Shown piece after piece: positions 1-24,852 of a DNA stretch of 36,148 nt. Origin of the DNA: a virus. Where the stretch lies: positions 1-36,148 of the IMG/VR virus record IMGVR_UViG_3300031963_000465. One strand, written 5' to 3'. The translations under genes and the position numbers were made by a program. The notes below the pieces were generated by a model. That model did no database searches and was not told the origin of the DNA. It saw nothing but the letters and a program-made list of their open reading frames with translations. The number at the start of each line of letters is the position of its first letter. The first letter of the stretch is position 1.

Positions 1-2
1 AG

Positions 3-125
3 GCTTTTCTAATTGACAATTTCGCCAACGAGTTGGCTTCAGAAAATCCTCGCTTTGATAGAAACCGCTTCGCTAATGCTTGCGGAATGACACCGATGGA
101 ATTGAACTACATTCTCACTCACTAG
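3..125 (+). CDS. 3' end of a small unknown protein (partial)
   Basis: An open frame runs in from the left edge and stops at TAG 123-125. It gives 40 visible residues including NPRFDRNRF and ending in MELNYILTH. The start lies outside the window, so full length and function are unknown. I recognise no catalytic motif. It is read in the same direction as the small-gene train that follows and is separated from it by a structured 78-nt gap. Confidence 0.6.
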   Translation, partial: AFLIDNFANELASENPRFDRNRFANACGMTPMELNYILTH

Positions 126-126
126 C

Positions 127-187
127 GTCTGCCTATCGCCCACCTTCACGGGTGGGCGGTGGGGAGGTTCTAGCCGAACGAGCAGAC
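127..187 (+). other. Nested stem-loop in the leader of the small-gene train
   Basis: An inner hairpin pairs CGCCCACC (137-144) with GGTGGGCG (151-158) across a 6-nt loop. An outer pair GTCTGC (127-132) and GCAGAC (182-187) encloses it. No T-run follows the inner stem, so it does not look like a simple intrinsic terminator. It lies between the stop at 125 and the ATG at 204. It could be a processing site, mRNA stabiliser or translational control element for the first gene. Confidence 0.4.
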
Positions 188-203
188 TCCGAAGGGATAG
201 ACA

Positions 204-416
204 ATGAGCGAGTGGCTTATCAACCGCGAGGCGGTAGAAGAACGCTTCGGACAACCTCTCACCGAAGAGGAGTGGAGCGCGGTCACCGAAGAGGTGGCAG
301 GGCGCGTGGAGAACTTCATTGAGGAAATTCTTGACGGCGTTCTTGAGATGAAAGTAAGAGAGTGCGATATGTGTCAGACGGGCTATATCCATCAGCACGA
401 GAAGGCGAGCAAGTAA
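204..416 (+). CDS. Small acidic hypothetical protein
   Basis: This 70-residue protein begins MSEWLINREAVEERFG. A mostly helical acidic body is followed by a Cys pair (CDMC) near residue 54 and a C-terminal His-rich stretch (YIHQHE), so weak metal binding is possible. AAGGGAT lies just upstream of the ATG as a ribosome site. Its TAA overlaps the ATG of the next gene (TAATG), implying translational coupling. Function is unknown. Confidence 0.75.
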   Translation: MSEWLINREAVEERFGQPLTEEEWSAVTEEVAGRVENFIEEILDGVLEMKVRECDMCQTGYIHQHEKASK

Positions 417-535
417 TGAGCAAGTGCCAACAATGCGGAGACGATAACGACCTCCTCGCACAATTCACGAAGTCGGGCGTATGCGGTAAGTGCGCCCGTG
501 CCAACCAACGCAAGGCGACTAGAGGGGGCAAGTAA
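416..535 (+). CDS. Micro zinc-ribbon protein
   Basis: This 39-residue protein, MSKCQQCGDDND..., has CxxC pairs at 4-7 and 23-26 (CGKC), the pattern of a four-cysteine zinc ribbon, followed by a basic tail (NQRKATRGGK). It starts on the stop of the previous gene and ends on the start of the next, both as TAATG. Such micro zinc ribbons usually bind DNA, RNA or protein partners, but no specific role can be assigned. Confidence 0.7.
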   Translation: MSKCQQCGDDNDLLAQFTKSGVCGKCARANQRKATRGGK

Positions 536-666
536 TGAAATCCTGGAAATGTGAAAAGTGCGGGCGCGACCTCGCACTAGAAGGAATTGACGACAACCTA
601 GCACTATGTCACCCCTGTTATTGCGAAGCAAACCTCAAGTCCGAGAGAGAGAAGGAGAACGCATAA
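535..666 (+). CDS. Micro zinc-ribbon protein
   Basis: This 43-residue protein starts MKSWKCEKCGRDL. The first CxxC is at residues 6-9 and the second pair (CHPC) is near 25-28, again a four-cysteine ribbon, with a charged C-terminus. It is coupled to both neighbours by 1-nt stop/start overlaps. It resembles the preceding gene in size and metal-site layout but not in sequence. Confidence 0.7.
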   Translation: MKSWKCEKCGRDLALEGIDDNLALCHPCYCEANLKSEREKENA

Positions 667-863
667 TGAGCGAGAAAACGGCTTATACGATACTAAGCGG
701 GGAAAGTTATGAGGTAATGGCAACAAGCGCGGAGGAGGCTCTTGCTAAGTTCTTTGTCGCTTACGGGCATACAAGCGCGGAAGACTACGAGGGTAAGGGC
801 TACGATTTAGAAAATACTGAAGATGATGTAATTGAATCCGAAACCCTAACGGAGGTAATCTAA
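666..863 (+). CDS. Small hypothetical protein with YxVxAxSxEEA motif
   Basis: This 65-residue protein begins MSEKTAYTILSGESYEV. The segment SYEVMATSAEEALAKF resembles a motif common in small phage proteins, where a beta strand is followed by an EEA-type helix. The ATG at 666 is chosen over an upstream in-frame ATG because it overlaps the previous TAA and follows a GAGAAGGAG ribosome site. The C-terminal half is acidic. Function is unknown. Confidence 0.75.
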   Translation: MSEKTAYTILSGESYEVMATSAEEALAKFFVAYGHTSAEDYEGKGYDLENTEDDVIESETLTEVI

Positions 864-1033
864 TGGAAAAGGCAACAGTATTCACGGGTTGTTTTGAGTG
901 CGACAAGGAGAGCGAAGAGTTCAACGAAGGCGCAAAGTATGTTCTGATGTATCTCGCTTCATTGTATAGCGGGCTAACGGAGACGGATATCTGGCAGGAG
1001 TTCTTTCCAGAAGAGAAGGAGGGGCAGGAGTGA
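863..1033 (+). CDS. Small acidic hypothetical protein
   Basis: This 56-residue protein starts at an ATG overlapping the previous stop, with GGAGG just upstream. It carries one CxxC-like pair (CFEC, residues 10-13), too few cysteines for a complete zinc site in a monomer. An amphipathic helix with a hydrophobic YVLMYLASLY stretch and an acidic tail follow. Function is unknown. Confidence 0.65.
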   Translation: MEKATVFTGCFECDKESEEFNEGAKYVLMYLASLYSGLTETDIWQEFFPEEKEGQE

Positions 1034-1194
1034 GCTCGATCGAATTGAAGCGCGAACTATGGGCAGGGATAGCAAAGGCGAACGGGTGGTATAGCGAGCC
1101 TTTTTTCGTTCAGGTGTGGGTAGATAAGGAGGGGCAAATTGTGGATAGTGTCTCGTTCGCAGGGCTAGACCGCGACATTATTGAAAGAGCGTAG
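1030..1194 (+). CDS. Small hypothetical protein (GTG start)
   Basis: This 54-residue protein has a GTG start overlapping the previous stop as GTGA, with GGGGCAGGA upstream. The sequence begins MSSIELKRELWAGIAKANGW, and a beta-rich C-terminal half includes FVQVWVDKEG. It is the last gene before an 87-nt gap with hairpins, so it may close the first sub-operon. Function is unknown. Confidence 0.6.
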   Translation: MSSIELKRELWAGIAKANGWYSEPFFVQVWVDKEGQIVDSVSFAGLDRDIIERA

Positions 1195-1207
1195 TGCTTT
1201 ACTATGG

Positions 1208-1255
1208 GGGAGAGTGTCGTGTACCCTCTCCCTTGTGGTAGGTCACTACGACCTA
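1208..1255 (+). terminator. Two consecutive inverted repeats in an intergenic gap
   Basis: GGGAGAG (1208-1214) pairs with CTCTCCC (1226-1232). Directly after it TAGGTC (1239-1244) pairs with GACCTA (1250-1255) across a 5-nt loop. There is no long T-run, so the first may be a weak terminator or attenuator, and the second, more operator-like repeat could bind a repressor. They sit between the first sub-operon and the strongly signalled GTG start at 1282. Confidence 0.4.
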
Positions 1256-1281
1256 ACAACAAAGAACGAGGAGGAAAGTAA

Positions 1282-1644
1282 GTGGAAACACAGGACTACA
1301 ACGGGTGGACTAACCGCGAGACTTGGGCTTTCAACTTGTGGATAGACAACGATAGAGGGTTACAAGAGATGGCGGAGGATTACGCTCGCACATCTTTAGA
1401 AAATCACCGCAACGACAACCCCGAAGAACCCGAAGCAGGGCTATCTTCGGCGGTCTATTGCCTCGAAGAGTCGCTCAAGTATTGGGCGGAGGAGGAACTC
1501 TTCACCTTTGAGAGCGTGTCTAACAACGAGGCTCTCTTCAATGTTCTCACAGATATTGGCTCGCTCTATCGTATCAACTACCGCGAGATAGCAGACTCAA
1601 TGATTTCAGAACTACTACAAGAGGAGCAGGTGGCTAATGTTTGA
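1282..1644 (+). CDS. DUF7249-like conserved phage protein
   Basis: This 120-residue protein starts METQDYNGWTNRETW, followed by NLWIDND. The GWTNxETWxxxLWxDN signature resembles a family of small phage and plasmid proteins that I associate with DUF7249; the family name is from memory. The GTG start follows a very strong ribosome site (AGGAGGAAAG). The protein is acidic and mostly helical. It overlaps the next gene by 8 nt. Its biochemical role is not established. Confidence 0.75.
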   Translation: METQDYNGWTNRETWAFNLWIDNDRGLQEMAEDYARTSLENHRNDNPEEPEAGLSSAVYCLEESLKYWAEEELFTFESVSNNEALFNVLTDIGSLYRINYREIADSMISELLQEEQVANV

Positions 1645-1747
1645 TATCTCTTTGAGTTGGGTGAGTGGCTTCGGACAGGTCATCAGCTACGCCCTGATAA
1701 TCGGCGCGGTGCTGTGGCTCTTGAGTAAGTGGGAGGTGGGCGAGTAA
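1637..1747 (+). CDS. Single-pass membrane micro-protein
   Basis: This 36-residue protein has one clear transmembrane segment, about residues 12-29 (VISYALIIGAVLWLL), and a short charged C-terminus KWEVGE. The start overlaps the previous gene by 8 nt and has GAGGAGCAGG upstream. It likely inserts in the host inner membrane. Role unknown; immunity, host takeover or a holin-like accessory are all possible. Confidence 0.6.
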   Translation: MFDISLSWVSGFGQVISYALIIGAVLWLLSKWEVGE

Positions 1748-1893
1748 TGAGCAGGGAGTTAGAAGTATTGAGAGAAGAATATAAGAGGGCGGTAGAGAGC
1801 CCAATTTTTGATGACCCAAAAGATTACTGCGTGTTGTTAGACCTAATCCAAGACCGCATCAACGAAATCGAAGAGCGTTATGCCAACTACTAG
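1747..1893 (+). CDS. Small helical hypothetical protein
   Basis: This 48-residue, highly charged, predicted all-helical protein begins MSRELEVLREEYKRAVESP and ends INEIEERYANY. It starts on the TAA of the membrane micro-protein gene (TAATG). The pattern suggests a short coiled coil or helical hairpin. Function is unknown. Confidence 0.6.
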   Translation: MSRELEVLREEYKRAVESPIFDDPKDYCVLLDLIQDRINEIEERYANY

Positions 1894-1909
1894 AGAGAGA
1901 GGGCGAGTA

Positions 1910-2032
1910 ATGAACGCTTTGAAAGAACTAGATGAGGCTATGACTAGCCTTTGGTATCAGGCAGAAATTAGCGATGAGGCTAAGTTATATTGGAACGACC
2001 TAGTGGCAAAACTAAAAGAGGAGGGCAAGTAA
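1910..2032 (+). CDS. Small helical hypothetical protein
   Basis: This 40-residue protein, MNALKELDEAMTSLWYQAEI..., ends KEEGK. The ribosome site GAGAGAGGGCG precedes the ATG. The last codons contain the GAGGGCAAGTAATGA junction element that also provides the ribosome site and start of the next gene. No recognisable domain. Confidence 0.55.
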   Translation: MNALKELDEAMTSLWYQAEISDEAKLYWNDLVAKLKEEGK

Positions 2033-2247
2033 TGAGTGAGGTCTGCTTAGTATGTAGCGGAACTTATCCGCCTAACAACTCGCTTGTGTGTGACACCTGC
2101 GAAGGAAAAGATATTATCGGCGTATATCTTGACGATAGTTTGATATGCGTTCCGTGTAGCACAACAGGCGAGGGGGAGAGGGTGACGGCGGAAGCTGTAC
2201 CCGATGGCTTCACCTGTGATGAGTGTTTGGAGGTAGTCAATGCGTGA
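2032..2247 (+). CDS. Multi-CxxC zinc-binding protein
   Basis: This 71-residue protein carries four CxxC-type pairs: CLVC (5-8), CDTC (about 20-23), CVPC (about 40-43) and CDEC (about 62-65). The number suggests two zinc ribbons. Start 2032 is chosen over an upstream in-frame ATG because it overlaps the previous TAA and follows GAGGAGGGC. The last bases overlap the next gene by 8 nt. A regulatory or nucleic-acid-binding role is plausible but unproven. Confidence 0.7.
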   Translation: MSEVCLVCSGTYPPNNSLVCDTCEGKDIIGVYLDDSLICVPCSTTGEGERVTAEAVPDGFTCDECLEVVNA

Positions 2248-2401
2248 GTATGGAATACGAAAGACAGAAACCTATTATGTCCGAGCCAATTCTGAGGAGG
2301 AGGCTAGGGCGTTAGTGGATCAAATGGACAACTCCTATGCGTGGAGTGTCAATGTGGAAGCTATTTGGGCAGGGGCAGAGGAGGAGAACGCTAATGTCTA
2401 A
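2240..2401 (+). CDS. Small hypothetical protein with EEARALV helix
   Basis: This 53-residue protein begins MREYGIRKTETYYVRANSEE. The YxVxANSEEEARALV segment resembles the beta-alpha motif seen in the 666-863 product, suggesting a related fold. It overlaps both neighbours by 8 nt. Its start lies in a 16-bp sequence repeated at the start of the 2800-2955 gene. Function unknown. Confidence 0.6.
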   Translation: MREYGIRKTETYYVRANSEEEARALVDQMDNSYAWSVNVEAIWAGAEEENANV

Positions 2402-2807
2402 GATGAAATATAAATTACCAAAGGGTGTCACGCTAGAGATACTAGACGATGACGCTCACCGAAAAGACCGCCAAGATAGTGCTTTCTATACTTGGTATGA
2501 CAGTAACAATGTCGCCTACCTTACTTATGAGGACAGGGAATACAGTGTTACCTGCGTAGGTGAGATGCGTATTCACTACAAAAACCAAGTGATTAGATAC
2601 TGTGACGACTTGGTAAATGCTGGCATAAAGAACGACAAAGACCTAGCCAAGATAGACAAAGCTGGAGGAGAGTGGATCAACAACTCTTGGTTTGAAGTCT
2701 ATGATGAAATAAATAACGACTACACAGGCGAGGTCTATCACACAGTTCAGGACGCTATTGAAAGCGTGGCTAATTGGATAGTAGATGAGGAGACTGTCAA
2801 TGCGTGA
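2394..2807 (+). CDS. Hypothetical protein
   Basis: This 137-residue protein starts MSKMKYKLPKGVTLEILDDD and is one of the largest of the early train. It looks alpha/beta and is rich in Asp, Tyr and Asn (YTWYDSNN, YTGEVYHTVQDAIESV). No known catalytic motif was recognised. Start 2394 is preferred to an in-frame ATG at 2337 because GGAGGAGAACG precedes it and it overlaps the previous stop by 8 nt. Confidence 0.7.
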   Translation: MSKMKYKLPKGVTLEILDDDAHRKDRQDSAFYTWYDSNNVAYLTYEDREYSVTCVGEMRIHYKNQVIRYCDDLVNAGIKNDKDLAKIDKAGGEWINNSWFEVYDEINNDYTGEVYHTVQDAIESVANWIVDEETVNA

Positions 2808-2955
2808 GTATTCAACCTGCCATATATGTAAAGAGGATAGCCATACCGAAGATATGGTGACAGATATATCGGGAACGCTATATTGCTATGTCTGCTCTGA
2901 CATCTGCTTAGTCTGCGGTGTCTATCAACACGACTGCGAGGGGGCGAGCGTATGA
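2800..2955 (+). CDS. Micro zinc-binding protein
   Basis: This 51-residue protein begins MREYSTCHICKED and has CHIC (7-10), CYVC, CLVC and two further cysteines, enough for one or two zinc sites. Its start shares the sequence GTCAATGCGTGAGTAT with the gene at 2240 but the two proteins diverge at once after MREY. It overlaps the next gene by 4 nt (ATGA). Confidence 0.65.
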   Translation: MREYSTCHICKEDSHTEDMVTDISGTLYCYVCSDICLVCGVYQHDCEGASV

Positions 2956-3047
2956 ACTACATCAAGAACGAGAAGGGAAGGTTGGTCTGTTGTTCTTGCG
3001 AACGCGACATAATGGAACACCACAAGAGGCGGTGTCCATATGCCTAA
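2952..3047 (+). CDS. 31-residue C2HC-type zinc finger
   Basis: The whole protein is little more than one metal site: CCSC (13-16), then HH at 23-24 and a cysteine at 28, in a basic context (HHKRRCPYA). It is coupled by an ATGA overlap upstream and an 8-nt overlap downstream. The size is near the lower limit for a gene, but phase, coupling and metal ligands support it. Confidence 0.55.
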   Translation: MNYIKNEKGRLVCCSCERDIMEHHKRRCPYA

Positions 3048-3189
3048 GTGTGGCGTGTGTGGGTGGAGCTTCTCAGATAGAACGCTGATGAAGCACGCTG
3101 AAACCCCGTGTGGGGAGGAGAGCGAGAAGGCAGGTAGATACCTGCCTGAAATAGATGACTTACTACGACAAGAGGAGGAAAGTAAATGA
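3040..3189 (+). CDS. C2HC zinc-finger micro-protein
   Basis: This 49-residue protein, MPKCGVCGWSFSDRTLMKH..., has the C-x2-C ... H-x4-C arrangement (C4, C7, H19, C24) of a classical small zinc finger with a WSF hydrophobic core. A charged helical tail follows (IDDLLRQEEESK). The tail encodes GAGGAGGAAAG, which is the ribosome site for the next gene. DNA or protein binding is likely. Confidence 0.65.
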   Translation: MPKCGVCGWSFSDRTLMKHAETPCGEESEKAGRYLPEIDDLLRQEEESK

Positions 3190-3371
3190 ACGAAGTAATG
3201 GAGTGCGCTTGTGTTGATGTCTGTGGTTGGACTAAAGACCATACGCTAGTGAAAGAGGGCGTGTGGTGGGTATGTTCTAATTGTGGAATAGAACTAGCCT
3301 ACCCTGATGAGAAAGAGCAGTTGATTTCTTTTGACTGCGATACGCACGGCGAAAGGAATTGGATTAGATGA
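3186..3371 (+). CDS. Zinc-ribbon micro-protein
   Basis: This 61-residue protein has CAC and C (residues 7, 9, 13) near the N-terminus and CSNC (about 30-33), a split four-cysteine ribbon, and an additional Cys/His pair near the end (CDTHGERNW). The ATG follows a strong ribosome site and overlaps the previous stop (ATGA). Function is unknown. Confidence 0.65.
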   Translation: MNEVMECACVDVCGWTKDHTLVKEGVWWVCSNCGIELAYPDEKEQLISFDCDTHGERNWIR

Positions 3372-3535
3372 ACAAGGAATACTATCAAGCTAAGGCAGAC
3401 CTATGTCAGAAGCTGGCTATCCAGCAGATGACAGAGGGCAACGCGAAAGAGGCAGGGGCTAACCTGATCCGTATGGTCAATGCCCTGAACGAAATCAACC
3501 TAATCAACTACAAGGAGGAGAAGGCAAGTGAGTAA
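3368..3535 (+). CDS. Small helical hypothetical protein
   Basis: This 55-residue all-helical protein begins MNKEYYQAKADLCQKLAIQQ. It has a repetitive amphipathic pattern and ends in EEKASE. ATGA overlap upstream and 8-nt overlap downstream place it in the same translationally coupled chain. No domain recognised. Confidence 0.6.
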   Translation: MNKEYYQAKADLCQKLAIQQMTEGNAKEAGANLIRMVNALNEINLINYKEEKASE

Positions 3536-3701
3536 TACAATAGAAAGAGAGGCGATGCTTACACACCTAGAGGGGTATCGTAAGTATCTACGCAAGTTAC
3601 TAAAGCAACAAGACGGAGCAGATACCTCTGTCTATGAGTTTCGAGGCGCGATTAGCGCAGTAAATAATCTCATCAGAGAAGTAAAGAAGGGCGAGGTATG
3701 A
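3528..3701 (+). CDS. Small helical hypothetical protein (GTG start)
   Basis: This 57-residue protein, MSNTIEREAMLTHLEGYRKY..., has a GTG start preceded by AAGGAGGAGAAGG. It reads as two charged helices (RKYLRKLLKQQ and ISAVNNLIREVKKG) and may be nucleic-acid binding given its basic character. It overlaps the next gene as ATGA. Confidence 0.6.
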   Translation: MSNTIEREAMLTHLEGYRKYLRKLLKQQDGADTSVYEFRGAISAVNNLIREVKKGEV

Positions 3702-3928
3702 AACTCATCAACTTTTATGAGGTAATGGACCGCAAAGGAGATATTGCGTGGGGAGGAGCGAGCGTAACCGATGCGGTGGAGTGGTTTAGACGAGGCTTAG
3801 ATAACTCTATCTTTGTATCAGTGTGGGACGAGAGTAATGGGGAAGACCCCGTGTTAGTCACCGACAAGATAGAAGTTACTGCCCTCGTGCTGGCTACGAT
3901 TACGAGCGAGAGGGAGAGAGGGCGATGA
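3698..3928 (+). CDS. Small hypothetical protein
   Basis: This 76-residue alpha/beta protein, MKLINFYEVMDRKGDIAWGG..., includes a TDAVEWFRRG helix and a VSVWDESNGEDPVLVTD strand-turn-strand. It looks like a compact single domain. No active-site motif is recognisable. ATGA overlaps on both sides. Confidence 0.7.
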   Translation: MKLINFYEVMDRKGDIAWGGASVTDAVEWFRRGLDNSIFVSVWDESNGEDPVLVTDKIEVTALVLATITSERERGR

Positions 3929-4011
3929 TACTCTTGGGCGTAGTGATAGTCTGTATCCTTGTTTATATTCTAATTGTATGGGAGCATAAGCTCAATGAAC
4001 GAGATAGATAG
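3925..4011 (+). CDS. 28-residue membrane micro-protein
   Basis: MILLGVVIVCILVYILIVW is a nearly pure transmembrane helix followed by a charged tail (EHKLNERDR). It starts in an ATGA overlap and overlaps the next gene by 17 nt. The preceding GAGAGAGGGCG gives a ribosome site. Its position two genes before the transglycosylase-like gene could indicate a lysis or envelope role, but this is a guess. Confidence 0.5.
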   Translation: MILLGVVIVCILVYILIVWEHKLNERDR

Positions 4012-4300
4012 AAGGGTGGATACTGCCCTCAGAGAGGCAGTTCGCCAACGCAACTACCGAAGGATAAGAGATCGAGCTTTGTCTAGGCTGAAGAAACTTC
4101 ACCCTGACGATTACGCTCGACTATTAGAAGAGGAGAGGGCGAGAGATGAAGCTGAAGGCAAGAAGTGGCTGGACATTAGTGGCACTACCCGTACTGACAT
4201 TAGTCTTCACCTACCTACACATAGACAAGACAGTTCATATAGACCTAAACAAGCCAACACAGATGAGCAGGACGAAGGCAACGTGGGAGGAGAAGAATGA
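3995..4300 (+). CDS. Basic hypothetical protein with long out-of-frame overlap
   Basis: This 101-residue protein begins MNEIDRRVDTALREAVRQRN. The first 70 residues form a basic, Arg-rich helical domain (RRIRDRALSRLKKLHPDDY) ending near EGKKWLDISG. The last 50 residues, low in complexity and hydrophilic, are encoded in the 155 nt shared with the downstream transglycosylase-like gene in another frame. Start 3995 is preferred to 3974 because it keeps overlap with the previous gene short. Possibly nucleic-acid binding. Confidence 0.6.
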   Translation: MNEIDRRVDTALREAVRQRNYRRIRDRALSRLKKLHPDDYARLLEEERARDEAEGKKWLDISGTTRTDISLHLPTHRQDSSYRPKQANTDEQDEGNVGGEE

Positions 4301-4577
4301 GAACAGGAAGCTGGCAAAGCAATACGCGTGGGTTGCGTTTGGTTGGAGAGGACGAGAATGGACGTGCCTCAACACCCTTTGGACCCGTGAAAGTAGGTTT
4401 GACCACTACGCACAGAACCCAACTAGCTCAGCTAGAGGCATCGCTCAGATGCTTGGAGAGAGAAGTCGAGAGCCTTCACTCCAAATACTGCGAGGCTTAC
4501 GTTACATTGACAAGCGTTATGGATCACCTTGTAAAGCTCTTAGCCATTGGAAAAGGGCTAAGCCTCACCACTACTGA
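4146..4577 (+). CDS. Membrane-anchored lytic-transglycosylase-like protein
   Basis: This 143-residue protein has an N-terminal signal anchor at about residues 9-25 (WTLVALPVLTLVFTYL) and a C-terminal lysozyme-like domain. The motif LWTRESRFDHYAQNP contains the likely catalytic Glu82, followed by SSARGIAQMLGE and GLRYIDKRYGSPCKALSHW, a pattern typical of actinobacterial SLT-type or aggregation-promoting-factor-type domains. It should cleave peptidoglycan glycan strands outside the membrane. The ATG follows GAGGAGAGGGCGAG. It is far from the holin/endolysin cassette, suggesting a separate envelope role or a second lysis factor. Confidence 0.8.
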   Translation: MKLKARSGWTLVALPVLTLVFTYLHIDKTVHIDLNKPTQMSRTKATWEEKNENRKLAKQYAWVAFGWRGREWTCLNTLWTRESRFDHYAQNPTSSARGIAQMLGERSREPSLQILRGLRYIDKRYGSPCKALSHWKRAKPHHY

Positions 4578-4585
4578 GGAGGATA

Positions 4586-4747
4586 ATGTTTAGATATTGG
4601 TTGCTCTTTGGTATGAGAATGGGTTGGATAAGTAAGCCATACTGTATGACCCACGATGGGAACTATGAGTTTATGACAGAGGAAGAGCGTGAGGAGTGGG
4701 ACGCAGGTGGCGACCCTTGCCATACCGCAATTTCTATATTAGAATAA
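4586..4747 (+). CDS. Small hypothetical protein with CMTHDG...GGDPC motif
   Basis: This 53-residue protein begins MFRYWLLFGMRMGWISKPYC. It contains CMTHDG, a run of acidic residues (EEEREEWDAGGDPC) and a Cys/His pair, resembling small proteins common in actinobacteriophages. The ribosome site GAGGAGGATA lies just upstream. It is the last gene of the early plus-strand train, immediately before the double hairpin. Confidence 0.7.
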   Translation: MFRYWLLFGMRMGWISKPYCMTHDGNYEFMTEEEREEWDAGGDPCHTAISILE

Positions 4748-4749
4748 GG

Positions 4750-4819
4750 ATTACTGATCCCCTTTGACATCAGTAATAAATAACCCCGCAGATCAAGAGT
4801 GCTAACTGCGGGGTTATTT
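4750..4819. terminator. Double-hairpin bidirectional terminator
   Basis: Two perfect hairpins abut. ATTACTGAT (4750-4758) pairs with ATCAGTAAT (4769-4777). AAATAACCCCGCAG (4778-4791) pairs with CTGCGGGGTTATTT (4806-4819), a 14-bp stem. The second is followed by T-rich sequence on the plus strand and preceded by A-rich sequence that reads as U-rich on the minus strand. It separates converging operons and should stop both. Confidence 0.85.
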
Positions 4820-4995
4820 TATTTGTCTTTGTCTGTTGAATAGAAGCCTGATCCCCTGAACGAAAGAGGAGGAGAGGACCAGACCCTATTCATCATTTCG
4901 CCACACGAGCAGAAGGGGTTGCTCGCTTCAGCGTGGATAGACCTATCAACTTCGGAGGTTAGCTGACAGGTCGGACACTTGTATTCATAAATCAC
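4819..4995 (-). CDS. FmdB-family zinc-ribbon protein
   Basis: This 58-residue protein begins MIYEYKCPTCQ. Cysteines at 7, 10, 29 and 31 form the zinc ribbon, and the C-terminus FRGSGFYSTD matches the conserved tail of FmdB-type putative regulatory proteins. The GTG start overlaps the sigma-like gene stop (GTGA). The stop codon lies in the right arm edge of the terminator. The second CxxC is reduced to CxC, a small departure from the usual family pattern. Probable transcriptional or protein-binding accessory factor; the family's biochemistry is poorly known. Confidence 0.75.
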   Translation of the reverse strand: MIYEYKCPTCQLTSEVDRSIHAEASNPFCSCGEMMNRVWSSPPLSFRGSGFYSTDKDK

Positions 4996-5624
4996 TGATA
5001 AGGACTTTCGCCACCAAGATTATTCTGTAATCTGCGTAGAGAGTTCTGACATCTACGATCAGCAGTAGAGGTAGCACACTCTAGGTAGGTAGCTAACTCT
5101 TGGAGTGTAAGGTTCTCGTGGTATCTCTTGATGAGAATATCTTTGTCCATCACATCTAGTTTGAGGTACGCCTTCTTGATATCAATGAGCGTGGCGAGCA
5201 GGTTGCCACCTTCAGCAGGAGCAGACTGCTTCTTTGGTTGCCCATCGTTGATGAGGTTTTGAGCCTGTTCTAATACTGTGTTATCTACAACGGAGGCGAT
5301 AACGTGGGGAAGAAGTTGGGCTATGACGACAGTATCGTAGAAGGCTTCATCAGTAAGTTTATATCCGCTACGAGTAGCCTTCTCCCTGCGAGCGTAGCGT
5401 TCTGCGTGACGCTTCATCTGCCACGCCATACGCTTCTCGTTGATGACTCGCTGGACTGTGTTCTCTTCCGATAGTAATTGGTTGAAGTGTTCTGCTCGTG
5501 AGTAATACCACGACCAGCACTCTTGAACTACATCTTCTCGCTCAACAAAGTTGCGGTATCTACTGAAGATAGTTCTAGCTACGCTAAAGACTATATCAGG
5601 AGCTGATGGGTGTGTTTCTGTCAT
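4992..5624 (-). CDS. Sigma-70-like RNA polymerase sigma factor
   Basis: This 210-residue protein has an N-terminal sigma region 2-like helical segment (REDVVQECWSWYYSRAEHF, around residues 29-47) and a C-terminal region 4-like helix-turn-helix (about 155-205; NLTLQELATYLECATSTADR). The linker contains low-complexity Pro/Ala. It would redirect host RNA polymerase to phage promoters, or act as a DNA-binding regulator derived from a sigma factor. It sits near the end of the replication operon, coupled to FmdB-like and small genes. Family assignment is from motif layout only. Confidence 0.7.
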   Translation of the reverse strand: MTETHPSAPDIVFSVARTIFSRYRNFVEREDVVQECWSWYYSRAEHFNQLLSEENTVQRVINEKRMAWQMKRHAERYARREKATRSGYKLTDEAFYDTVVIAQLLPHVIASVVDNTVLEQAQNLINDGQPKKQSAPAEGGNLLATLIDIKKAYLKLDVMDKDILIKRYHENLTLQELATYLECATSTADRRCQNSLRRLQNNLGGESPYQ

Positions 5625-7994: not shown

Positions 7995-8824
7995 AAAGCC
8001 CTCGCTAAGTTAGAGTTATAGACCATCCTGCCGTAAGCATCAGCGTCAGATATCTGGCAGGTAGCAAAGTTTACGAATAAACCTGCCCAATCCTTGCCAT
8101 CAACTGAATGCTTTCCGAAACGATTCTTTACGGCTGCAACCCTAAGCGTATGCTCAAACGGGTTGTAACCCAGCGTGAGTATCAGAGCTGGTAGTTGAGA
8201 TACCTTACCTTGGATTGCTCGTCGGTGCGGTGGCTCAGTCATAGATCCGTACTCAGTCTGTTCTGATACGTGATGCAGAACAACGACACAGGCTTCTGTC
8301 TTGCGTGCCATATCGTGTAGCTCCACCATTATCTGGCGTAAGCCTGCCCACTCATTATCAGATTCAGCGATGACATTCATCAGGTTATCTACGACTATCA
8401 ACTGTGGTGCGATGCCATAGAGTTCAATGTAAGCCTTTACCTCTGCCTCAATATCATCAAGGTTTGGTGATGAATCAAAGACCCACTGTATGTGTGATAT
8501 AGCCTGTAGATTTTCTTCATAAGCATCAGGGTTGATACTCATTTGATTCTCTACAGTTTCTTGGGTGTGACCTGCTAGATGTGCTGCAGCACGCAACATC
8601 ACCGTAGCAGTATCGGTATCTGCAGAAAAGAACAGAGTAGGCACCTTGGCCTTGATAGCGTACACAAGAGCGAACATAGACTTTCCAGCGTTAGGTGCAG
8701 CGGCAACCATACACACTTGACCACGCCGAAACTTTATGCCTTTAGTATCTAAGTCTTTCCACACAGTCGGAAGTGGCTGCGCCAATGTATGGGCAGTCTT
8801 CCAAGCGCGGTCTAACCTAAGCAC
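7991..8824 (-). CDS. RecA/DnaB-type ATPase (putative replicative helicase or recombinase)
   Basis: This 277-residue protein has Walker A APNAGKSM (residues 43-50), a strand-capping segment LFFSADTD and Walker B LIVVDNLMN (D146). A sensor-like segment VVVLHHVSE and a C-terminal KNRFG follow, the layout of DnaB C-terminal domains. The family's N-terminal primase-binding domain is missing, so it is shorter than a usual DnaB. Two small primase subunits encoded in the same operon would be natural partners. A RecA-like recombination ATPase cannot be excluded. Confidence 0.82.
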   Translation of the reverse strand: MLRLDRAWKTAHTLAQPLPTVWKDLDTKGIKFRRGQVCMVAAAPNAGKSMFALVYAIKAKVPTLFFSADTDTATVMLRAAAHLAGHTQETVENQMSINPDAYEENLQAISHIQWVFDSSPNLDDIEAEVKAYIELYGIAPQLIVVDNLMNVIAESDNEWAGLRQIMVELHDMARKTEACVVVLHHVSEQTEYGSMTEPPHRRAIQGKVSQLPALILTLGYNPFEHTLRVAAVKNRFGKHSVDGKDWAGLFVNFATCQISDADAYGRMVYNSNLARAL

Positions 8825-9077
8825 TTTCCTCCCGTCGTAAAACTATTCTTCTTTGTTTTCTTATCTGCTTTCGATGTGCCTCTGTAAGGCCACCCCAGAT
8901 TCCGTAACGCTCGTTATGGATACCCCATTCTGCACACTCAGCTTGATGGATACAGTTGTTACATATACTTCGAGCGAAGTGCGTTTCAGGCTTGCTTCCT
9001 TGCCCTGGTTCTGGAAACCAGAAGTCGCTACCTGATTGAGCGCAGAGAGGATCCTCGAATTCACGAGGCTCTCGCAT
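8817..9077 (-). CDS. whiB: WhiB-family iron-sulfur regulator
   Basis: This 86-residue protein has the four cluster-ligating cysteines C12, C39, C42 and C48 (CxxC-x5-C), the turn motif GIWGG (59-63) and a basic C-terminal region (RKQIRKQRR) for DNA contact. WhiB-like proteins are specific to Actinobacteria and their phages and bind the host primary sigma factor. They can switch host transcription or block superinfection, as described for mycobacteriophage TM4 WhiB. A GTG at 9119 gives a 100-residue alternative overlapping the upstream gene; the ATG is preferred because it leaves no long overlap. Confidence 0.9.
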   Translation of the reverse strand: MREPREFEDPLCAQSGSDFWFPEPGQGSKPETHFARSICNNCIHQAECAEWGIHNERYGIWGGLTEAHRKQIRKQRRIVLRREESA

Positions 9078-9081
9078 TGGG

Positions 9082-9450
9082 TCATCGGACCCAGATAGTT
9101 TGGCACTTATCTGTAGCACCCTTTGGTGCGCTACACATATAACCTTTCCAAGGACCCTTAGCGCTTACGCCTTCTTTGTAAGCCATCGGTCCGTGCTTAC
9201 AGAAGTTACCTGACCCAACAGGAGCAATAGTTGGTGCAGGCGCAGATGCTACTGGCGCAGCACTTGGTACGGGCGCAGCAACTCTAGCGCCTGAGAATGA
9301 TTGGCTAACGCTTCCAATGAGGGCAGAAAAGTCCTGCGCTGTTGATAACAGCGCCTCAAGTTCTTCCTTATTCGCAGCGTACAAATTGATAAGAGTTCCA
9401 TCTGGTGCTTTGAAATTCACCTGAAACTTTGTTGACTCTGGTGCAGCCAT
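9082..9450 (-). CDS. Zinc-ribbon protein with Ala/Pro linker (recombination-associated)
   Basis: This 122-residue protein has an N-terminal beta/alpha domain (KFQVNFKAPDG, NKEELEALL) and a long Ala/Pro/Val linker (about 55-80). A C-terminal zinc ribbon follows with ligands in CKHGPM, GYMC and KCQTIW. Similar three-part proteins occur beside Cas4-like nuclease genes in actinophages. A single-strand DNA-binding or recombination-mediator role is possible by context only. Its stop and the exonuclease start are tightly coupled. Confidence 0.7.
   Translation of the reverse strand: MAAPESTKFQVNFKAPDGTLINLYAANKEELEALLSTAQDFSALIGSVSQSFSGARVAAPVPSAAPVASAPAPTIAPVGSGNFCKHGPMAYKEGVSAKGPWKGYMCSAPKGATDKCQTIWVR

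Positions 9451-20085: not shown

Positions 20086-20098
<13 letters not shown>
20071..20098 (-). promoter_or_regulatory. Candidate leaderless promoter of the glycosyltransferase gene
   Basis: On the minus strand TACGAT (20071-20076) lies 6 nt from the ATG at 20064, the geometry of a leaderless actinobacterial -10 box. A TTGTCA box lies 15 nt further upstream, a short spacer. It overlaps the 3' end of the collagen-like gene. The lack of a Shine-Dalgarno site before this ATG supports the reading, but the match is weak evidence on its own. Confidence 0.4.
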
Positions 20099-21683
<1,585 letters not shown>

Positions 21684-21687
<4 letters not shown>

Positions 21688-23861: not shown

Positions 23862-23888
23862 CTTTTCCTTTCCTAATTTATTCACCAC

Positions 23889-23910
23889 CAAGCAGGGTTG
23901 CCCCTGCTTG
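23889..23910 (-). terminator. Hairpin after the major capsid gene
   Basis: CAAGCAGGG (23889-23897) pairs with CCCTGCTTG (23902-23910) with a 4-nt loop. No T-run follows on the minus strand, so it may be a partial terminator or an mRNA stabiliser that keeps capsid expression higher than the genes after it. Confidence 0.5.
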
Positions 23911-23922
23911 ATAGACAACAAA

Positions 23923-24852
23923 CTAGTTGATTGTTGTTGCAGTCTCGATGCGGTATAGAGCCGCTTCACGGAGACGGTTCCAGCCAGCGAAGGTGTACCA
24001 GCCGATGGTGCGGAAACGACGGAGTGCGTCGATTTCTGGACCGATAACGACTGAAGTATCCTGAGCAAGGGCTTCAGCAAGTGCTTCACGACCAGCGACA
24101 ACTGCGCTGTATACGTTTACGGAAGCAGAATTTACTGCGGATGGAACGCGTGGTGTCTCAACGATGTAAGCACCTTCCAACGCTCCGACTGCACCAGCGA
24201 CGAACGGGGTGCGCTCGACGTATTTGGTGAGTTCCTGGAATCCACCAGTTCCCGCTTCAGCGCGGAGATCCGCAGACTGACGTGGGTGGAGGTATGCAGC
24301 ATAAAGTTCGCCAATACGAGGAACTGCCTTGTTGGTACGGAGTTGAACAACAGCCTTACGAATAAGAGCAGTTGTCATTGTTCCAGAGGAAGTAACTGTG
24401 TTAGGGCTTGATGCTGTGCCACCGTAAAGAACGTTTGAACCGCCAGTCAAAACGCCTGCTACAACTGTGTCGATAGAATCGGCAGCGTTGTAAGCAATGA
24501 TATCAGCAAGTGCTGCATCTACGTCGTTGAAAGAAGTGAGGTTCAACTTCTTGGTGGTTGTTACGGCTGAGCCGTATTCATTGAGTGTAACAGTAACCTG
24601 ATTTGGGTTACCAAGTGCGATTGAGGAAACATCAGAAGTTTCTGTCAAAGTACCAGTCGCTGTTGCGAGATCTGAGTAGATGGAGAATACAACTGACGAA
24701 CCTGGCATTGCTTGCTGTACTGGCTTTACATCAGCCAACGCACGCATCACAGGGATGGAGCGAAGAGCCATACGAACATACTGATCGTACGCACTCTGTA
24801 CAAGGTTTTGCATTGACGAAACTTGCGTCAACGTACCTGTAGGGACTGCCAT
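23923..24852 (-). CDS. Major capsid protein (N4-gp56 type)
   Basis: This 309-residue protein begins MAVPTGTLTQVSSMQNLVQS. It includes NEYGSAVTTTKKL (about 91-103), LHPRQSADLR and YVERTPFVAGAVGALEGAYI, with C-terminal GWYTFAGWNRL and YRIETAT, all consistent with the N4-gp56 family of HK97-fold capsid proteins. It forms the icosahedral shell. The scaffold gene lies just upstream (26-nt gap), the usual arrangement. The ribosome site AAAGG precedes the ATG. Confidence 0.85.
   Translation of the reverse strand: MAVPTGTLTQVSSMQNLVQSAYDQYVRMALRSIPVMRALADVKPVQQAMPGSSVVFSIYSDLATATGTLTETSDVSSIALGNPNQVTVTLNEYGSAVTTTKKLNLTSFNDVDAALADIIAYNAADSIDTVVAGVLTGGSNVLYGGTASSPNTVTSSGTMTTALIRKAVVQLRTNKAVPRIGELYAAYLHPRQSADLRAEAGTGGFQELTKYVERTPFVAGAVGALEGAYIVETPRVPSAVNSASVNVYSAVVAGREALAEALAQDTSVVIGPEIDALRRFRTIGWYTFAGWNRLREAALYRIETATTIN

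Follow-up and report, generated by a model that had tools for sequence, protein, structure and literature searches.

A micro-gene train in a phage record, with two competing pairings of an RNA element and a dual-coding transglycosylase-like gene

Messages of phage T7 contain intercistronic RNase III sites, long intergenic hairpins that occur in the early as well as the late region. The put element of phage HK022 is described in the available text of PMC9378689 as a sequence of ~70 nucleotides (nt) with two stem-loops, which is found immediately after PL and, in the case of PR, ~270 nt beyond the start. There is a general precedent for small phage proteins acting on their hosts (accessible part of PMC11323111), and phages E7 and F5 infect ‘Candidatus (Ca.) Planktophila’ LanE-43, according to the accessible part of PMC10202952. 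Here we describe a locus in the virus record IMGVR_UViG_3300031963_000465 of IMG/VR, the whole of which (36,148 nt) is referred to as the window. Its plus strand carries, at 204–4747, a train of micro-genes, g1–g25, the gaps of which hold an RNA element and near the 3′ end of which three genes, g22, g23 and g24, overlap deeply. We read the locus as the early coupled micro-gene operon of an uncultured freshwater actinobacterial phage, with a two-state RNA element and a dual-coding g23, and give this overall reading a probability of about 0.5. To us, the most interesting parts are the RNA element and the enzyme gene that other genes overlap completely, both of which look more novel than the train itself.

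Relatives were collected from viral contigs by a scan for g23 (118 found, 80 kept) and a scan for the sigma-factor gene (83 found, 80 kept), the contigs being partly common to both lists. A gene caller based on codon usage and trained on the train genes and their homologues was applied to 60 sources, consisting of the window and 59 relatives with distinct g23 and at least 3 kb of upstream sequence. Trains of at least eight genes were present in 55 of these sources, and their 973 proteins were used for clustering.

A proposed two-state RNA element in the gaps of the train

The gaps inside the trains are non-random, and two gaps of the window (118–190 and 1187–1255) hold a conserved RNA element. 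We collected 61 copies of it from 44 of the 55 trains, with one to three copies per train, all of which follow a common plan: a strand A, a hairpin P1 of 13–17 base pairs (bp) with a U-G rich base (CUWUC/GGUGG-like), a strand B and a strand C. Strand B can pair in two ways. Pairing with A gives an extended hairpin of 20–28 bp, whereas pairing of the first half of B with C forms a second hairpin, P3, so that two hairpins abut in tandem. In copy 1 of the window (118–190, plus strand), strand A includes the stop codon TAG at 123–125, the core hairpin P1 occupies 133–162, and strand B and P3 occupy 163–190. In copy 2 (1187–1255, plus strand), A lies at 1190–1201 and includes the TAG codon of g6 at 1192–1194, followed by P1 (1202–1238), B (1239–1250) and C (1251–1255).

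P3 was the selection rule for the set of 61 elements, and we therefore also chose a set by P1 alone. A hairpin then lay within 0–1 nt of P1 in 57 of 59 elements; with the expected position of P3 offset by +4, +8 and +12 nt, the same elements gave 14, 1 and 3 of 59, respectively, and the shuffled mean was 7.9. The complementarity of A and B, measured in 58 distinct elements, scored above all of the 500 re-dealings. P1, P3 and A:B covary in alignments A4, A6 and A7, among which we relied on A4 (14 rows) and A7 (15 rows); A1–A3 were set aside because of row misplacement by MAFFT. Over A:B and P1 in A7, nine pairs had changed on both sides, and the covariation was 0.244, compared with 0.115 for shuffled alignments and at most 0.116 when the pairing was slid. 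Three of the pairs changed on both sides belong to A:B, for example CG/UA/GC at 5–63 and UA/AU/CG at 6–62. In copy 2 of the window, CGUAGUG is matched by CACUACG, whereas the pair in the commonest relatives is CUAGUG and CACUAG. The second pair of P1 is a U-G wobble in 15/15 and 13/14 rows, which points to pairing in RNA rather than in DNA. Folded freely, 49 of 58 elements chose A:B, and the free fold of copy 1 of the window had a z of −3.4. Since A:B and B:C use the same strand B without spare nucleotides, we read them as alternatives. One strand of the element has two competing, conserved pairings, as is characteristic of two-state (attenuator-like) RNAs.

To locate the element in whole genomes, we used two models: R1, built from 14 relatives with the window excluded, and R2, which includes copy 2 of the window. 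R1 found copy 1 of the window (E = 8e-4; 2.5e-5 per record), and the match of R2 to copy 2 is by construction, because that copy is part of the model. Across 20 whole records, the matches of either model at E up to 0.1 lay in trains, except for three R2 matches; this placement leaves out mirror matches on the opposite strand and one unplaced R1 match (E = 0.057, in G017). Eight of the 20 records had no R2 match and eight had no R1 match. The three matches outside the trains (G003, G009 and G013) all lie just after the capsid gene by their coordinates, as was read directly for G003. The post-capsid gap proved to be conserved, with a P1-like hairpin in 58 distinct sequences from 79 of 80 loci, 42 of them after TAG and 16 after TAA. 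The window has such a hairpin at 23873–23926 (minus strand). Its P1 is of the same kind (CTATC...GGTGG) and is enclosed by an outer helix that includes the capsid stop codon; another hairpin, which could compete with it, may form within the last part of the capsid gene. This copy was not matched by R2. Within the trains, the element lies at a median of 0.145 of the train length and is flanked by 33 upstream and 30 downstream families, so its presence does not depend on any single gene. Of 60 measured copies, 46 have the upstream stop codon within strand A or touching it.

Rfam (4227 families) gave no match at the gathering threshold in the window, four weak matches in window 1–5000 at E up to 5, none of them on the sense strand of the element, and no match in six relatives at E up to 2. 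Our literature search did not find a description of this RNA element, which does not prove that none exists. In the outgroup records L078, L079 and L362 (isolate F5), similar gaps hold other tandem-hairpin elements (CAGCCCCGC...GCGGGGYACG) that the models do not match, and the F5 train has other structured gaps.

Ribosomes may gate the element, which would then serve in mRNA control. With the stop codon lying in strand A, a ribosome that terminates there would cover A, and B would be available to pair with C. Translated messages would then take the tandem form and untranslated ones the extended hairpin, and the two forms might differ in mRNA processing or decay, which is the weakest step of the scheme. 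In this way the element would make the cutting or stability of the mRNA depend on translation, both near the beginning of the early operon and behind the capsid gene. Control of mRNA processing or stability would suit an element placed at these two sites, one early in a long coupled operon and the other behind the late gene in heaviest use. Our proposal that it represents a phage RNA family which senses translation at the stop codon, and decides whether the early operon and the post-capsid message are kept or cut, is a tentative one that we regard as rather doubtful. If true, it would couple the life of early mRNA to the state of the host ribosomes, for instance during translation arrest induced by defence, in an abundant group of freshwater phages, and it would add a phage RNA family with a directly testable two-state model.

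Several observations weigh against this picture of the element. R1 missed copy 2 of the window, two train-bearing records among the 20 (G000–G019) gave weak or no matches, and isolate F5 has neither an R1 nor an R2 match, besides lacking g24. The rows of the alignments are related, so that the shuffle counts are not probabilities. With A blocked, P3 formed in 58 of 58 folds, a figure that is weak by itself because P3 had served to select these elements and shuffled downstream sequence also gave at least four P3 pairs in 202 of 290 folds. The stop codon, moreover, stands away from the element in the measured copies beyond the 46 of 60 in which A touches it.

Other explanations of the element compete with ribosome gating. 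It might be a cis-acting transcription antiterminator like put of HK022, which would modify RNA polymerase for readthrough of the operon. Such a role would agree with its similar size, two abutting stem-loops, promoter-proximal position and independence of the flanking genes, but a simple put model does not accommodate the conserved A:B pairing across the upstream stop, and copies also occur after the capsid gene, far into the late genes; we consider this explanation unlikely. A translational operator or protein-binding site like the pseudoknot of T4 gene 32, in which A:B and P3 would form together as an H-type pseudoknot, seems improbable to us, although the loop of P3 equals the distal part of B and 41 of 57 elements have at least five strong pairs there, compared with a mean of 23.7 (maximum 32) after re-dealing. 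The T4 pseudoknot, like our element, overlaps the upstream gene (available text of PMC535899). Both helices covary, with zero linker nucleotides between them. In the aligned rows, PKb and the 3′ arm of P3 are directly adjacent, so that a helix of 5–7 bp could not be spanned, and the 30 downstream families have no gene in common. The element could also be a plain, constitutive processing or stability hairpin that involves no ribosome gating, in the manner of the T7 RNase III sites. Its intergenic position, its several copies per genome in early and late regions and the long hairpin of the free fold would be expected of such a site, which nevertheless leaves the fixed placing of the alternative hairpin P3 unexplained, and we think it an unlikely account.

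Two further candidates were rejected. Stop-codon readthrough is not a shared feature, because the frame after the TAG at 123–125 and that of the class A consensus close inside the element, as judged by eye; the frame after the TAG of g6 is open to 1281 in the window. A DNA operator was considered because the tip of P1 is often GTTAGNCTA, like the spacer of the early promoters of relatives, but the window copies do not have it. As for these promoters, sequences of the form TTGACA ... TAtnnT are seen upstream of the trains of relatives such as L062, L073 and L004, with GTTAGACTAGCC in a spacer that resembles many P1 tips and is a possible operator.

A transglycosylase-like gene covered by two neighbours

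The product of g23 (143 residues; 4146–4577) matched the transglycosylase family phrog_12661 of PHROG with E = 2.2e-16, and its match to Pfam SLT (E = 0.054) was below the cut-off; it also has an N-terminal hydrophobic stretch. The gene lies wholly within g22 (101 residues; 3995–4300), the final 155 nt of which are shared with g23 in a different frame, and g24 (98 residues; 4297–4593), which runs in the +1 frame relative to g23 across 281 nt. Thus, g23 is covered by g22 up to 4300 and by g24 from 4297, in two other frames, and is fully dual-coding. Neither g22 nor g24 had a match in the phage collection.

Among 73 distinct g23 homologues, the +1 frame is open for at least 90 codons in 65 and the +2 frame in none, whereas synonymous resampling of g23 left the +1 frame open in only 3–4%. 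The start of g24 and the stop of g22 overlap by 4 nt in 59 of the 73 rows. In the g24 overlap, a stop codon was made at 1 of 378 stop-capable codon choices where 175 were expected, compared with 371 against an expected 353 in the unused frame. The same contrast was obtained with 33 disjoint near pairs, which had one stop in the g24 overlap against 7.1 expected (23 against 25.7 in the control frame) and no stop in the g22 overlap against 6.4 expected (7 against 6.2 in the control). The g24 frame is closed in seven divergent rows, L075–L080 and L117, all of which retain g23, and isolate F5 also keeps g23 and has stops in the g24 frame. The confinement of g24 to the main clade fits its birth by overprinting: as in overprinted genes, its frame is open beyond expectation and is distributed more narrowly than the g23 frame. 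In the structure model, the N-terminus of g24 is disordered and one long helix spans residues 38–95.

Evidence on the other side concerns the protein encoded by g24. Its dN/dS (ratio of nonsynonymous to synonymous substitution rates) is 1.17, as expected of a gene overlaid on a conserved one, and is no proof of protein constraint; a BLOSUM test of such constraint did not separate g24 from control frames, which also had low counts. The constraint shown for g24 is therefore that of an open frame, and protein-level constraint beyond it is demonstrated neither by dN/dS nor by BLOSUM. One could argue from the dN/dS above 1 and from the lack of a homologue in known phages that g24 is a chance open frame, held open by the relatedness of the rows and by the amino acid constraint on g23. 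The open frame in 65 of 73 homologues, the regular 4-nt overlap with g22 and the near-pair counts of stops, set against their control frame, make this explanation very improbable. A description of the g22/g23/g24 triple overlap was not found in the literature we searched, which does not prove that there is none. An enzyme gene fully covered by two genes offers a clear case for the study of gene birth by overprinting.

The micro-gene train, its zinc proteins and its probable host

The sequence-only reading had described a train of about 23 coupled micro-genes with overlapping junctions nearly everywhere. We found 25 plus-strand open reading frames (ORFs) within 204–4747, and the description of their junctions held up: with g23 left out because of its deep overlap, 20 of 23 junctions are overlaps of 1, 4 or 8 nt, the exceptions being an 87-nt gap between g6 and g7, a 16-nt gap between g9 and g10 and a 17-nt overlap between g21 and g22. 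The limits 204–4747 do enclose a run of coupled genes, but the train starts upstream of 204, since the ORF that ends at 125 and is cut by the window edge is part of it, and the deep overlap of g22, g23 and g24 had gone unreported, like the RNA elements in the two gaps. The minus-strand genes of the window have only 10 of 40 junctions of 1, 4 or 8 nt (Fisher p = 3.5e-6 against the train, with the caveat that the gene caller was trained on the same train genes and homologues). Over the 60 sources, overlaps of 1, 4 or 8 nt account for 611 of 919 junctions, and the gene products have a median length of 56 residues. A ribosome-binding site lies within the upstream gene at 566 of the 611 coupled junctions, compared with 138 for matched random internal 13-mers. 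Each gene has its ribosome-binding site in the end of the preceding one, so that coupling is inherent in the junctions. From its junctions, the train is thus an operon of translationally coupled small genes, the expression of which is probably early.

Homologues of all 25 ORFs were found by tblastn in related viral contigs. Lack of codon constraint across relatives had been named as one result that would speak against the train; instead, purifying selection acts on the single-frame genes for which usable pairs were available, with median dN/dS values of 0.02–0.46 and no pair reaching 1 (usable pairs were absent for g3, g5 and g11, and a single one was available for each of g1, g4 and g14). Because they have homologues in relatives and are constrained at the codon level, the train genes are real, which establishes a long run of small phage genes with products down to 28 residues. 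No other part of phage genomes is understood as poorly as the small early genes.

The gene before g1 (3′ end at 1–125) resembles by eye family 7 (MTRKDY...), which is present in 19 of 55 trains and is often their first gene. It is followed, all on the plus strand, by g1 (70 residues; 204–416), with a C-terminal CxxC plus HxH; the zinc ribbon genes g2 (39; 416–535, two CxxC) and g3 (43; 535–666); g4 (65; 666–863); g5 (56; 863–1033), with one CxxC; and g6 (54; 1030–1194), which has a GTG start and ends inside strand A of the second RNA element. Beyond the element, g7 (120; 1282–1644) encodes a DUF7249 protein (Pfam E = 1.1e-9, 39.6 bits against a cut-off of 27), and g8 (36; 1637–1747) a single-helix membrane protein of a family found in 40 of 55 trains. 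Then come g9 (48; 1747–1893), g10 (40; 1910–2032), g11 (71; 2032–2247), with eight Cys in four CxxC motifs making two zinc sites, g12 (53; 2240–2401) and g13 (137; 2394–2807). The zinc protein genes g14 (51; 2800–2955) and g15 (31; 2952–3047) precede g16 (49; 3040–3189), a C2HC zinc finger of the commonest zinc family (36 of 55 trains) whose match to Pfam zf-C2H2 (E = 0.024) was below the cut-off, and g17 (61; 3186–3371), another zinc protein. The core gene g18 (55; 3368–3535; 46 of 55 trains) is followed by g19 (57; 3528–3701; GTG start), g20 (76; 3698–3928), the most widespread train gene (52 of 55), and g21 (28; 3925–4011; 47 of 55), which with g8 makes up the two single-helix membrane proteins noted earlier, a judgement in which we concur by eye from the sequence. 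Downstream of g22–g24 lies g25 (53; 4586–4747). The same stretch, GTCAATGCGTGAGTAT, occurs at the g11/g12 (2233–2255) and g13/g14 (2793–2815) junctions and hints at gene shuffling at repeated junctions. A likely terminator at 4778–4819 (plus strand), with a 14-bp stem followed by TTTTATTT and a fold z of −5.1, stands between converging gene sets; just past it, on the opposite strand, 4819–4995 (minus) encodes a 58-residue FmdB-like zinc ribbon protein. Elsewhere in the window, a 533-residue protein at 20086–21687 (minus strand) has long collagen-like repeats.

The proteins of the 55 trains fall into 267 families, 130 of them singletons, and 71 families with 209 proteins are zinc-like. At the 3′ end, g18, g20, g21 and g22 are nearly constant across trains and the remaining genes turn over. 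The trains join a stable 3′ core (g18 and g20–g24) to fast-changing accessory genes rich in zinc micro-proteins. In the window, a fixed zinc-site rule was passed by seven products (g2, g3, g11, g14, g15, g16 and g17), whereas 2000 composition shuffles gave 1.5 such products on average and never more than 5; together with the weaker sites of g1, g5 and g25, the earlier estimate of at least eight zinc-site products was about right. Cys and His positions are the best conserved, as in g16 (n = 42), where they score 0.98, 0.98, 1.00 and 1.00 against a mean of 0.71 for other residues. These data support the view that the train encodes real and, to judge from its layout, co-expressed small proteins rich in zinc sites.

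A clear family could be given to only two train products, g7 (DUF7249) and g23 (transglycosylase), and Pfam and PHROGs assigned a functional name above the cut-off to none of the zinc products. The model of g20 is an alpha/beta structure with a pLDDT (predicted local distance difference test) of 93.9; fold searches with it gave no confident match (best, VIA, Z 4.8), and 29 g20 homologues had no match in PHROGs. We infer that binding to proteins of the host or the phage is the most likely role of the zinc micro-proteins. The earlier suggestion that they are a pool of factors for host takeover or anti-defence may be right but is doubtful. Their accessory behaviour and rapid turnover would suit such a pool, as would the apparent early operon in which they stand, the general precedent of small phage proteins acting on hosts (accessible part of PMC11323111) and the enrichment of zinc-like proteins among train proteins of less than 100 residues (197 of 846; the corresponding count outside the trains, in eight sources, is 4 of 49; Fisher p = 0.013; one of the four is WhiB). 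Against it, none of them matched a named anti-defence family in Pfam or PHROGs, or in PADLOC as run on 10 of the 25 train proteins; PADLOC covers defence rather than anti-defence proteins, and its two hits (E 0.016 and 0.009) were marginal.

WhiB-like transcription factors are a mark of actinobacterial phages, and the window encodes one at 8817–9119 (minus strand; Pfam E = 3.2e-14). The nearest record to the 1591-residue protein of the window in the phage collection is OX376640, with 25% identity. The assemblies of OX376640 and OX376641 (Caudovirales sp. ct2KA10) are named LanE43-AprE7 and LanE43-AprF5, which match isolates named in the accessible part of PMC10202952. Because WhiB is present and the nearest record matches the ‘Ca. 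Planktophila’ phage E7, the host is probably a freshwater actinobacterium. The window had no DNA-level match to any known phage, and a capsid-based genome scan for a host returned 50 pattern stretches and no relatives. The distant cultured relatives E7 and F5 keep the micro-gene train, and as they grow on ‘Ca. Planktophila’ LanE-43 (accessible part of PMC10202952), parts of the system can be tested in a real host.

Comparison with known systems

As a gene array, the train has its nearest parallels in two phages. Streptomyces phage Endor1 (Camvirus) likewise has small genes with overlapping junctions that end at a lytic transglycosylase gene, but this gene is not covered by other annotated genes and the array holds larger known genes. 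F5 of ‘Ca. Planktophila’ shares short overlapping genes with zinc sites, and differs in having neither g24 nor the element as modelled. With the overprinted virus genes reviewed in PMC8227390, as far as its available text goes, g24 shares a restricted distribution, a disordered overlaid protein and the same-strand +1 frame; in our case, by contrast, the older gene, g23, is fully covered by two neighbours in two other frames.

The RNA element resembles put of HK022 in its two abutting stem-loops, similar total size and position near early promoters (available text of PMC9378689). As in put, the spacer between the two stem-loops is close to nil and an early promoter is nearby, the promoters having been seen by eye and in relatives only. 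It differs from put in the competing A:B pairing through the stop codon and in the post-capsid copies, and the likeness is one of layout. The operator pseudoknot of T4 gene 32, too, is an element of phage mRNA that precedes a start and overlaps the end of the upstream gene (available text of PMC535899); it serves one gene only, whereas our element stands in one to three copies before 30 different families. The likeness to the T7 RNase III sites is again one of layout, and what sets the present element apart from them is the conservation of a second, competing hairpin.

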